Positions 4,368 to 10,868 of a stretch of 64,000 nt of DNA are shown here, one piece after another. Source of the stretch: Mycolicibacterium diernhoferi (GTDB lineage: Bacteria; Actinomycetota; Actinomycetes; Mycobacteriales; Mycobacteriaceae); NCBI RefSeq assembly GCF_019456655.1, contig NZ_CP080332.1, positions 3,038,001 to 3,102,000 of the forward strand. Direction: 5' to 3'. Position 1 is the stretch's first letter, and every line of letters starts with the position of its first letter. The notes beneath the pieces are model-generated. The model did not search any database. It had not been told where the DNA came from and saw only the letters and a program-made list of their open reading frames with translations. The position numbers and the translations under genes were made by a program.

Positions 4368-5800
4368 CCCGTCTGCTGTCGGTGATGGTCCTCATCGCCG
4401 CCCTGGCCGGCTGCAGTCCCGCCGCCAAGGAACCGGATCCGACCCCCACGCAGAGCGCTGCCGAGGATCGTCCGGTCTCCCTCGACGAGGCCCGTGCGAT
4501 CGCGAAAGAGGCCTACGTCTACGGGTTTCCGATGGTCGACAACTATCGGGTGCAGTACGCCTACTTCGTGGACAAGGAGGACCCGGAGTACAAGGGCGGC
4601 TGGAACGCCATCCACAACTTCGCACGGGTGTCCACGCCCGCGGACACCGCGATCCAGACCCCGAATTCGGACACCCCGTACTCGTTCGTCGGCGCGGACC
4701 TGCGCGCCGAGCCGTTGGTGCTGACGGTGCCACCGATCGAACAGGACCGCTACTACTCCCTGCAGTTCGTCGACGGCTACACCTACAACGTCGGGTACGT
4801 GGGCAGCCGGACCACGGGCAACAACGGCGGGCGCTACCTGCTGGCCGGGCCCGGCTGGCAGGGCGAGAAACCCGAGGGCATCGACGAGGTCATCCGGTCC
4901 GGCACGGATCTGGCGTTCGTGCTGTACCGCACCCAGTTGTTCGGGCCGTCCGACATCGACGAGGTCAAGTCGATCCAGGCCGGTTACCAGGTGGCGCCGC
5001 TGTCGGTGGCGCTCAACCAGCCGTCGCCGGCGGCCGCCCCGCCGATCGACTTCACCCCGCCGCTGACCGCGGAGGCGCAGAAGACCTCGCCGCAGTTCTT
5101 CGAGGTGCTCAACGCCGCGCTGCGGTTCGCCCCGGCGCAACCGGGCGAACAGGAACTACGGGACCGGTTCGCGCGCATCGGCATCGGGCCGGGCGGTGAC
5201 TTCGACGCCGACAAACTGAGCCCGGAGATGCGCACGGCCGTCGAGGACGGCATGGCGGACGCCTGGGCCGAGTTCGACGCGTTCAAGAAGGACAAGGTCG
5301 ACACCGGCGAGGTCGGCTCGGCGCAGTTCTTCGGCACCGCCGAGGACCTCGACGGCAATTACCTGTACCGGATGGCCGGCGCGGTGCTGGGCATCTACGG
5401 CAACACCGCGGCCGAGGCGCTGTACCCGAGTGCGATGAACGACTCCGACGGGGCGCCACTGACCGGGGCCCAGCGCTACACCTACCGGTTCGAGCCGGGA
5501 CAACTGCCACCGGTCAACGCGTTCTGGTCGCTGACCATGTACGAGCTGCCGTCCAGTCTGCTGGTGGACAATCCGATCAACCGGTATCTGATCAACTCGG
5601 AGATGCTGCCGCAGTTGGTGCCCGACGCGGACGGCGGCTACACGCTGCTGATCCAGCACGACTCGCCCGGGGCCGACAAGGAACCCAACTGGCTGCCGGC
5701 ACCCGAGGGACCGTTCGCCCTGGTGTTGCGGCTGTACTGGCCCAAGCCGGACGCGCTGAACGGCAGCTGGCAGGCGCCGCAGCCGGAGCGGGTCGGTTAG
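4364..5800 (+). CDS. DUF1254/DUF1214 domain lipoprotein
   Basis: A 478-residue protein with a lipoprotein signal: VTRLLSVMVLIAALAGC puts the lipobox LAGC at residues 14-17, so Cys17 is the expected lipidated residue. The mature part has an N-terminal DUF1254 region (VYGFPMVDNYRVQYAY, ... TPNSDTPYSFVGADL) and a C-terminal DUF1214 region (RFEPGQLPPVNAFWSLTMYELP, ... LLIQHDSPGADKEPNWLPAP). Such proteins are common in mycobacteria; their role is not established. The GTG start overlaps the stop of the SDR upstream; an in-frame ATG at 4385 would shorten the signal too much. The TAG stop overlaps the TAA of the convergent PAC2 gene (shared TTAG at 5797-5800). Confidence 0.85.
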   Translation: MTRLLSVMVLIAALAGCSPAAKEPDPTPTQSAAEDRPVSLDEARAIAKEAYVYGFPMVDNYRVQYAYFVDKEDPEYKGGWNAIHNFARVSTPADTAIQTPNSDTPYSFVGADLRAEPLVLTVPPIEQDRYYSLQFVDGYTYNVGYVGSRTTGNNGGRYLLAGPGWQGEKPEGIDEVIRSGTDLAFVLYRTQLFGPSDIDEVKSIQAGYQVAPLSVALNQPSPAAAPPIDFTPPLTAEAQKTSPQFFEVLNAALRFAPAQPGEQELRDRFARIGIGPGGDFDADKLSPEMRTAVEDGMADAWAEFDAFKKDKVDTGEVGSAQFFGTAEDLDGNYLYRMAGAVLGIYGNTAAEALYPSAMNDSDGAPLTGAQRYTYRFEPGQLPPVNAFWSLTMYELPSSLLVDNPINRYLINSEMLPQLVPDADGGYTLLIQHDSPGADKEPNWLPAPEGPFALVLRLYWPKPDALNGSWQAPQPERVG

Positions 5801-6666
5801 CGGCCACGCCTACGCAGGTACCGCTCGAACTCGGCGGCCAGCGCGTCGCCGTCGATCTTGCCCAGCGCCTCGTTCATGTCCACCTCGGCGTCGCCGCGTT
5901 CCTCCAGTGACTGCACGTACTCGGCGATCTCGTCGTCCTCGGCGGTCATCTCGGTGACGGCCTGCTCCCACTCCTCGGCCGCGGTGGGCAGATCGGCCAA
6001 CGGCACCTCGATGTCCAGGACGTCCTCGACGCGCCGTAGCAGCGCCACGGTGGCCTTCGGGTTGGGCGGCTGGGACACGTAGTGCGGAACCGCCGCCCAG
6101 AACGTCACCGCCGGGATCCCGGCCTGCACGCAGGCGTCCTGGAACACCCCGGCGATACCGGTGGGTCCCTCGTAGCGGGTCTCCTCCAGGCCGAAGAGCT
6201 TGGCCGATTCCGCCGAGTACGCGGCACCGGACACCGGGACCGGGCGGGTGTGCGGTGTGTCGGCGAGCAGCGCACCCAGAATGACGACGGTGTCGACGTT
6301 CAGCTTGTCGGCGATGGCCAGCAGTTCCGCGCAGAACGTGCGCCAGCGCATGTTCGGTTCGACCCCGTGCATCAGCACGATGTCGCGGTCGCTGCCCGGC
6401 GGGCGGCAGTGCGAGATCCGCATCGACGGCCAGACCAACTCACGTGTGACGCCGTCGATCTGGCGGATCACCGGGCGATTCACCTGGTAGTCGTAGTAGC
6501 TCTCGTCGTCGATCTCGACGATGGTCACGGCTTCCCAGATCGCGTCCAGGTGCTCCAGGGCTCCGCTGGCCGCGTCGCCGGCGTCGTTCCAGCCCTCGAA
6601 GGCCGCCACCACGACTGTGTTCTGCAGCTCCGGCAGGCCGGGCACGCTCGGATCCGACGGTGTCAC
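5797..6666 (-). CDS. PAC2 (proteasome assembly chaperone 2) family protein, Rv2125-like
   Basis: A 289-residue protein whose core LPELQNTVVVAAFEGWNDAGDAA, then HYVSQPPNPKATVALLRRVEDVL, identifies the bacterial PAC2 family. The M. tuberculosis member is Rv2125 (about 292 aa). Eukaryotic PAC2 helps assemble proteasome alpha rings; the bacterial role is unknown and many actinobacteria carry two paralogues. I took the GTG at 6666 (VTPSDPSVPGL), since the frame above it (to 6819) adds an Arg-rich non-family extension. The C-terminal acidic region (TAEDDEIAEYVQSLEERGDAEVD) is typical. It is divergent from metH. Confidence 0.85.
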   Translation of the reverse strand: MTPSDPSVPGLPELQNTVVVAAFEGWNDAGDAASGALEHLDAIWEAVTIVEIDDESYYDYQVNRPVIRQIDGVTRELVWPSMRISHCRPPGSDRDIVLMHGVEPNMRWRTFCAELLAIADKLNVDTVVILGALLADTPHTRPVPVSGAAYSAESAKLFGLEETRYEGPTGIAGVFQDACVQAGIPAVTFWAAVPHYVSQPPNPKATVALLRRVEDVLDIEVPLADLPTAAEEWEQAVTEMTAEDDEIAEYVQSLEERGDAEVDMNEALGKIDGDALAAEFERYLRRRGR

Positions 6667-7016
6667 ACTGCCAGCGTAAGCCCTGGATCGCAGCGAGGAG
6701 CCACGGCGGGCCACACGGCGATTTGCGGCCCGGATCCCCGTGGTCAGGGCGGTGCGGGACAAATCCATTTGGCTAGCCGGACTACTCTGTTCCTGTGACC
6801 GCCGGCTTGCGACACCCACGCGACACCCGCCGACCGGACCTGTTCGGCCGGCGTGTCATGCCCGGTGCCGGCGTCAAGGCCGGTGCCCGCGAGGTCGAGG
6901 CCAAATGCGTTGGACTGCAACAGGTCCAGCCCTGGTGTCGTTGACCTGCCGACAGGTCCCGCGAACTGTCATCGCGGTGACGAGTTGGGCGTCCGGACGT
7001 CGATCGGGTGACGACG
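6667..7016. other. Non-coding stretch between PAC2 gene and metH promoter
   Basis: About 350 bases between the divergent PAC2 and metH genes with no credible ORF on either strand. A GCGACACCC direct repeat occurs at about 6809-6828. I see no cobalamin-riboswitch B12-box here. It presumably holds both promoters, but I cannot place the PAC2 one. Confidence 0.4.
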
Positions 7017-7022
7017 TAGACT
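7017..7022 (+). promoter_or_regulatory. Possible -10 hexamer of the metH leader transcript (TAGACT)
   Basis: TAGACT fits the mycobacterial TANNNT -10 pattern and would start RNA near 7029, exactly where the folded leader begins at 7030. No recognisable -35 is present, which is common in mycobacteria. The placement is supported mainly by its fit with the aptamer boundary. Confidence 0.35.
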
Positions 7023-7028
7023 TTCCAA

Positions 7029-7122
7029 GGTCGAGAGGCGTTGCAACGGTTATCTGGGGGCTGTTTCCCCTGGTATCCGCCACGCTCGGCAGAGTCAAGG
7101 ACGCCTTCCGCCACGGAAGGAG
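7029..7122 (+). promoter_or_regulatory. Candidate S-adenosylhomocysteine (SAH) riboswitch upstream of metH
   Basis: Seen in sequence: GTCGAG (7030-7035) pairs with CTCGGC (7085-7090). The adjacent AGGCGT (7036-7041) pairs perfectly with ACGCCT (7101-7106), which lies outside the first helix and so forms a pseudoknot. Between them is the conserved-looking TTGCAACGG (7041-7049) and an internal hairpin GGTTATC...GGTATCC capped by GGGG/CCCC (7056-7070). Downstream, CCTTCCG (7104-7110) can pair with CGGAAGG (7114-7120), hiding the metH ribosome-binding site. That hairpin competes with the pseudoknot for 7104-7106. This topology and the CGAG..GCG.TGCAAC..GCTCG..CGCC order match the SAH riboswitch class as I remember it. 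Ligand binding would free the Shine-Dalgarno, an ON switch. Confidence 0.75.
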
Positions 7123-7127
7123 TGCAC

Positions 7128-10868
<3,741 letters not shown>

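Follow-up and report, generated by a model that had tools for sequence, protein, structure and literature searches.

The metH leader

The window, by which we mean the whole stretch of 64,000 nucleotides that was analysed, contains on its plus strand a gene for cobalamin-dependent methionine synthase, metH, in which Pfam recognises all five MetH domains, so that the protein is complete. Between a candidate promoter and the start codon lies a leader with two helices (P1 and P2), a pseudoknot and a hairpin that includes the Shine-Dalgarno sequence:

7017..7022, plus strand: candidate -10 box TAGACT, from the sequence; the transcript would start at about the first aptamer base
7027..7113, plus strand: SAH-riboswitch-like aptamer, the extent of the RF01057 match (cmscan, 24.5 bits, model positions 1-78 of 78)
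7030..7035, plus strand: P1 5' strand GTCGAG, pairing with 7085-7090 (six pairs, one G-U)
7036..7041, plus strand: pseudoknot 5' strand AGGCGU, pairing with 7101-7106 (six perfect pairs)
7041..7049, plus strand: near-invariant core UUGCAACGG (TTGCAACGG as read on DNA), within the 17-nt core that is exact in 99 of 165 metH loci
7047..7054, plus strand: P2 5' strand, pairing with 7072-7079; U7050 and U7076 are unpaired (U.U mismatch)
7056..7070, plus strand: apical hairpin atop P2, its length differing among species
7072..7079, plus strand: P2 3' strand, pairing with 7047-7054; inner pairs vary, with compensation in part
7080..7084, plus strand: core CCACG; A7082 is taken as A29 and C7083 as position 30, swapped relative to proteobacteria
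7085..7090, plus strand: P1 3' strand CTCGGC, pairing with 7030-7035
7097..7100, plus strand: core AAGG; G7099 is taken as position 46, the proposed partner of C7083
7101..7106, plus strand: pseudoknot 3' strand ACGCCU, its last three bases common to the anti-Shine-Dalgarno strand
7104..7110, plus strand: anti-Shine-Dalgarno strand CCUUCCG, seven perfect pairs with 7114-7120 (-9.0 kcal/mol)
7114..7120, plus strand: Shine-Dalgarno side of the hairpin, CGGAAGG; the Shine-Dalgarno sequence GGAAGGAG is 7115-7122
7128..7130, plus strand: metH start codon GTG, from the sequence; the N-termini of orthologues align at 7128
7128..10868, plus strand: metH (Pfam: S-methyl_trans, Pterin_bind, B12-binding_2, B12-binding, Met_synt_B12)

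A first-pass annotation of this DNA had proposed a SAH riboswitch in the leader, and every coordinate that it gave for the elements is exact to the base. The pseudoknotted topology that it described is borne out by P1, by the pseudoknot and by a full-length match to RF01057; P2, which was absent from its list, completes the fold of the RF01057 family. A 340-codon open frame (5797-6819, minus strand) is divergent from metH and begins upstream of the metH promoter.

Similarity to RF01057

Compared with RF01057, the Rfam family of the SAH riboswitch, positions 7027-7113 obtain 24.5 bits over the full length of the model (E 0.015 for 401 bases and 4227 families), which falls under the curated gathering cut-off of 37 bits; at gathering cut-offs, Rfam returns no family anywhere in the window. 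When the 6.0 Mb genome was scanned with RF01057, the metH leader was the best match (E 0.05, with the runner-up at E 1.0). Because RF01057 also matches weakly, at E up to 10, in 10 of 14 control genomes, 24.5 bits are insufficient by themselves, and we therefore based the analysis on a comparison led by metH. No match in 248 genomes of the genus reaches this cut-off; 8 of the 20 leaders scanned from other actinobacterial families exceed it, and so do matches in 19 of the 394 class genomes. The covariance-model check that the first-pass annotation had called for thus yields a match that is sub-threshold in the window and over the cut-off in other actinobacteria.

The folding energy of the leader is ordinary (z -0.71; 52 of 200 shuffles fold equally well) and, not being significant, was dropped as evidence for the element. 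Matches to HCV_ARF_SL and Burkholderiales-2 on the opposite strand are far below their own cut-offs and were taken as chance.

Occurrence within the genus

At E up to 10, RF01057 alone matches in 241 of the 248 genus genomes, and the best-scoring 30 loci that were fetched all directly adjoin metH. Since choosing loci by their RNA biases the result towards the RNA, we searched all 248 genomes again with the N-terminus of MetH as query. This search matched in 242 genomes, 221 of them with orthologous metH (E < 1e-60) and 21 with weaker matches (E 1e-36 to 1e-40), the latter comprising 20 genomes with a distant MetH (47-50% identity) and one (G139) with an orthologue cut by a contig end. A covariance model (R1) built from 54 metH-selected leaders (alignment A2) finds the element in 222 of the 248 genomes, namely in all 221 with orthologous metH and in one further genome (G112) whose contig ends 69 bases behind the element. 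R1 finds it in none of the 21 genomes with only a distant or truncated MetH match and in none of five others without metH, absence for six of these 26 being read from gaps in the R1 match list. As R1 was derived from such leaders, 222 of 248 is a census and not an independent test of the structure. The element is probably an on-switch that has stayed with metH throughout the genus.

An exact copy of the 17-nt core GAGAGGCGTTGCAACGG is present in 99 of 165 metH-bearing loci. Elsewhere among the 165, one locus (L112) has two mismatches, 64 have at least five and are counted as lacking the core, and one is cut by a contig end; 31 of the 100 core-bearing loci had entered the set via the RNA model. 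The named metH loci came from 80 of 572 relatives, and none among them is labelled M. tuberculosis or M. smegmatis.

The 20 genus genomes with distant MetH only (loci L147-L153 and L155-L167; 47-50% identity at the N-terminus) lack the element; here, a changed type of methionine synthase went with absence of the riboswitch. Two metagenome bins, one assigned to Propionibacteriales (L083) and one to Acidobacteria (L093), have MetH N-termini 86% and 81% identical to that of the window together with a leader of mycobacterial type, and are perhaps misbinned. In one genus genome (G099, loci L145 and L168), metH appears split in two frames, with the core of the element exact.

Conservation and co-variation of the helices

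Two comparisons were made. The MAFFT alignment of 62 leaders (A1) misplaced L112 and a few hairpins; A2 omits eight rows (L040, L064, L077, L097, L112, L125, L145 and L146) and contains 54 leaders. All eight are included in a second, pattern-based table, whose 152 distinct actinobacterial copies comprise 94 of the genus type and 58 that are not. The pattern fixes pseudoknot pairs 1 to 4 in part, UGC, CCA and G31, which leaves positions 30, 46 and 47, the pairs 0 and 5 of the pseudoknot and the outer pairs of P1 as the only informative parts of the table; among 23 proteobacterial loci the pattern missed one (L266).

P1 is paired in every cell (100%) of the 54 metH-selected leaders through GC/AU and UG/CG/UA changes, with one pair changed on both sides (in one row) and one pair changed on one side. 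P2 is paired in 81% of cells: its outer three pairs are invariant and its inner three vary, and each of two inner pairs is open in roughly half of the leaders (26 of 54 and 28 of 53). All six pseudoknot pairs are present in every leader (100% paired) without any variation, and the anti-Shine-Dalgarno hairpin is paired in 97.6% of cells, six of its seven pairs never varying. The linker between P1 and the pseudoknot carries extra inserts of about 15-20 nt in L097 and L040, perhaps hairpins.

The covariation score of the pseudoknotted structure exceeds that of all 500 shuffles, and the score of the hairpin structure that of 499 of 500, with shuffles that leave relatedness in. Two coarser measures are weak: pairs changed on both sides were reached by 8 and 137 of 500 shuffles for the pseudoknotted and the hairpin structure, respectively; the number of further pair types is not exceptional (reached by 160 and 216 of 500). 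A shift of the partners by one to three columns lowers pairing in the pseudoknotted structure from 93.7% to 36-44% and in the hairpin structure from 93.2% to 32-48%.

Among the 152 actinobacterial copies, the last pair of the pseudoknot is UA in 103, CG in 44, UG in 4 and CU in one (L227, a mismatch), and the first is A-U in 143 and G-U in 9. A MetH tree of 66 rows requires at least four changes in the 5' letter of the last pair and at least eight in its partner. Three well-supported independent pairs were available for a sign test on this tree; the partner moved in the same direction in an average of 2.4 of them and in the opposite direction in none, and so small a number does not reach significance. 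As the pseudoknot and six of the hairpin pairs are invariant in the 54 leaders, their co-variation rests on the other families and on few independent changes. Compensatory changes, which the first-pass annotation had named as a check, are accordingly seen for P1 and P2 within the metH-selected leaders, and for the pseudoknot and the anti-Shine-Dalgarno hairpin once other families are included. Judged by sequence and structure comparison, we take the RNA of the metH leader to belong by descent to the SAH riboswitch class RF01057.

The anti-Shine-Dalgarno hairpin and a model for switching

The bases CCU at 7104-7106 are common to the pseudoknot and the anti-Shine-Dalgarno hairpin, so that the ligand-bound fold and the fold sequestering the Shine-Dalgarno sequence are mutually exclusive; the first-pass annotation's claim to this effect is right as regards these three shared bases. 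As a free duplex, the pseudoknot helix is worth -8.3 kcal/mol with six pairs and up to -10.9 kcal/mol with eight, two of them G-U. The whole leader adopts the Shine-Dalgarno hairpin; truncated ahead of the Shine-Dalgarno strand, it forms the pseudoknot helix instead, which suggests that the pseudoknot can form first during transcription. In the modelled free-fold ensemble, the Shine-Dalgarno bases 7115-7120 are unpaired with a probability of 0.00-0.01. With the pseudoknot strands occupied and P1 forced, a constraint imposed by hand, the model leaves 7116-7122 unpaired at 0.72-0.98 and 7115 at 0.17.

A perfect hairpin of at least 6 bp that starts in the shared bases can be formed in 147 of the 152 actinobacterial copies and one of 5 bp in the remaining five, compared with 7.4% of shuffled tails, and it occurs in compensated versions (CCTTCC/GGAAGG, CCTCCC/GGGAGG and CCTCCG/CGGAGG). 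Upstream, the TAGACT -10 box of the first-pass annotation is found at 7017-7022, and a TANNNT motif 3-14 nt before P1 is present in 148 of the 152 distinct copies, as against 29 of 611 upstream control windows.

We infer from this arrangement a translational switch that would turn metH on. The RNA would begin at the aptamer, and without ligand CCUUCCG would pair with the Shine-Dalgarno sequence and allow little translation of metH. Binding of SAH would lock P1, P2 and the pseudoknot, whose 3' strand would claim three of the anti-Shine-Dalgarno bases and free the Shine-Dalgarno sequence. The MetH then made would drain the homocysteine released by SAH hydrolase.

Occurrence outside the genus and gene contexts

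Over 394 genomes of the class, R1 matches in 68, of which 25 belong to the genus and 43 lie outside it in five other families. All 43 of the latter matches precede metH. In the loci L273 and L287, metH was recognised by eye from translated N-termini. Scanned on 20 of these 43 loci, RF01057 matches 19 at E up to 0.5, including the 8 over the cut-off; over the 394 genomes it matches in 47 at E up to 0.003, including the 19 over the cut-off. Many other metH genes lack the element: among metH loci, it is present in 3 of 15 from Nocardioides, none of 7 from Blastococcus and none of 12 from proteobacteria (core search, with Rfam on part). Two loci, L250 and L295, were left out as apparent chance matches inside coding sequence. 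The element-bearing metH genes span two MetH lineages with a very deep split (tree of 66 rows), and the same switch before both suggests that metH was exchanged while the switch stayed in place, or else that the switch itself was relocated.

The downstream gene is not always metH. In three genomes the element is followed by ahcY, assigned by Pfam in L249 (from Prauserella halophila) and L293 and from the translated N-terminus alone in L297; a second copy, before metH, occurs in the genomes of L297 (as L197) and L249 (as L126). Between element and ahcY, L249 and L297 contain a 16-codon upstream frame, MPxSxxTSASSARVVV, which follows the element's Shine-Dalgarno sequence; ahcY may be reached there by translational coupling. 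One copy (L296) precedes a gene for adenosine deaminase (Pfam). Finally, R1 found no element in the 10 genomes listed for other genera of the family to which the window belongs; in one of them (G277), RF01057 finds a copy (locus L294) before a class I SAM-dependent methyltransferase.

SAH hydrolase yields homocysteine and adenosine, of which MetH removes the former and adenosine deaminase the latter. Given these reactions, three of the four kinds of downstream gene are as expected of a SAH signal, and the metH, ahcY and adenosine deaminase contexts point to SAH as the ligand. In the proteobacterial SAH regulon, methyltransferase genes, including those for rRNA methyltransferases, are among the members, and adenosine deaminase is not a target named in the available part of that account (PMC4239095). 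If the element does sense SAH, the ahcY and adenosine deaminase contexts would extend the SAH regulon in actinobacteria.

We regard the metH leader as very likely an actinobacterial variant of the SAH riboswitch that acts as a translational on-switch. This reading is built on anatomy, conservation, co-variation, RF01057 homology and gene contexts, all of them shown by the sequences, from which the ligand, the ON direction, control at the level of translation and the transcript start are deduced.

Bases at the presumed ligand site and alternative readings

In crystal numbering, we take G7043 and C7044 to be the ligand-contacting G15 and C16, and positions 29, 30 and 46 presumably fall on the bases listed above. 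G15, C16, A29 and C46 lie at the SAH site, and position 46 adjoins the homocysteine tail of the ligand (PMC7057144). The equivalents of G15, C16 and A29 are invariant in the free alignment of 54 leaders; the pattern-based table requires them and hence says nothing on their conservation. Positions 30 and 46 are C and G in all 152 actinobacterial copies and G and C in all 22 proteobacterial ones, and position 47 is G in 152 of 152 as compared with 12 of 22. The proteobacterial set was assembled with RF01057 in two parts, the first from 15 genomes behind named loci (seven copies over the cut-off) and the second from 61 genomes of one order (16 new copies, 15 over the cut-off); the proteins downstream of all 23 copies look like AhcY by eye from translated N-termini.

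We read the double change at 30 and 46 as one base pair turned round, C7083-G7099 in the window. The swap may have happened once, so that 152 copies are not 152 events, and we treat it as a mark of the variant and not as a feature that defines the family. Owing to this change, affinity or specificity for SAH could differ in actinobacteria, and the swapped bases offer a direct and cheap test of ligand-tail recognition in the class.

A stronger version of this idea holds that the element descends from the SAH riboswitch and still controls metH, and that the core change (C30/G46, with G47 fixed) altered its ligand to SAM, another adenosyl compound or adenosine. The uniform difference between the two groups of copies at 30/46 and 47, the position of base 46 near the homocysteine tail (PMC7057144) and the adenosine deaminase context of L296, which the accessible text on the proteobacterial regulon does not name (PMC4239095), speak for it. 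The change is, however, complementary on both sides as for a pair that is kept, the equivalents of G15, C16 and A29 are retained, and the ahcY and metH contexts fit SAH, with the copies before ahcY (L249, L293 and L297) bearing the same swapped core; we consider an altered ligand unlikely. It is similarly doubtful that the actinobacterial metH and ahcY elements form a subclass in which the turn from G30-C46 to C30-G46 beside the amino-acid tail has changed ligand preference. If they did, the family, so far regarded as uniform for SAH, would contain two specificities, the second in use across mycobacteria and further actinobacteria.

The core also contains a perfect palindrome, CGTTGCAACG (7039-7048), which is invariant across the 54 leaders of A2, and a repressor might bind it as a DNA operator, the RNA fold being incidental; a SAH-responsive TetR repressor, McbR, exists in Corynebacterium (PMC4239095). 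Yet 45 of the 152 copies carry C for the second T (CGCTGC...), which destroys the palindrome, and 44 of the 45 have G in place of A at the distant pseudoknot partner. P1 and P2 show long-range co-variation, and the palindrome, which is situated 3' of the -10 box, falls within the match of an RNA model. We rejected the operator on the broken palindromes and regard it as very improbable. That the leader merely sets a fixed, low level of metH translation through its Shine-Dalgarno hairpin, which is strong and near-universal among the copies, without sensing any ligand is scarcely credible, since P1, P2 and the core are unnecessary for a fixed level and the aptamer core is invariant over the 54 A2 leaders far beyond the need of a simple hairpin.

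Comparison with known systems

If the metH leader is the SAH riboswitch that we propose, a SAH-sensing RNA stands before metH in all 221 of the 248 sampled genus genomes with orthologous metH, and the supply of MetH is tied to the waste of methylation. None of the 248 genomes exceeds the standard cut-off, and annotation based on that cut-off therefore misses the element. SAH control of metH would stand beside the cobalamin riboswitch of metE. MetH sets susceptibility to sulfa drugs in M. smegmatis and M. tuberculosis (PMC5070874).

The first-pass annotation correctly placed most known members of the class in Proteobacteria, but the occurrence of the class in Mycobacteriaceae is already in print: one sentence of 2013, which in the text available to us is given without gene, structure or mechanism, states that SAH riboswitches 'were also identified in Mycobacteriaceae' (PMC3766115), and these are very probably the elements described here. 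Our search of the open-licence literature turned up no description of the mycobacterial metH element, of its platform or of the core swap. What is in print is thus existence in the family, and the link to metH, the platform and the swap are without a paper found in that literature.

The class is said to have been first described by Wang 2008, and its crystal structure reportedly by Edwards 2010. With the proteobacterial members of RF01057 in ahcY and metF leaders, the metH leader shares P1, P2, the pseudoknot from the junction to the 3' tail, the cores UGC(A/G)A and CCA-N-GCU and a context of SAH-recycling genes, and the covariance model indicates homology. The actinobacterial element differs in having C30/G46 instead of G30/C46, in a pseudoknot that begins with A-U or G-U where the proteobacterial one mostly begins with G-C, in metH as its main target and in the anti-Shine-Dalgarno hairpin overlapping the pseudoknot, which by the same test is lacking in 17 of 22 proteobacterial copies and reaches at least 6 bp in four of 22. 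The core regulon of the proteobacterial riboswitch consists of ahcY and metF, with metH in Comamonadaceae (PMC4239095); this last case is the same class before the same target gene, although betaproteobacterial, and is likened here from its description only.

Two further systems sense SAH by other means. The SAM/SAH riboswitch RF01727, found before metK in Rhodobacterales, likewise binds SAH and is a small pseudoknot (PMC7367207), but has another fold and other genes, and cmscan gives no match between it and the metH leader at E up to 10. McbR of Corynebacterium (PMC4239095) also senses SAH for methionine genes in an actinobacterium; there the sensor is a protein acting on DNA, whereas before the mycobacterial metH it would be the leader RNA itself.
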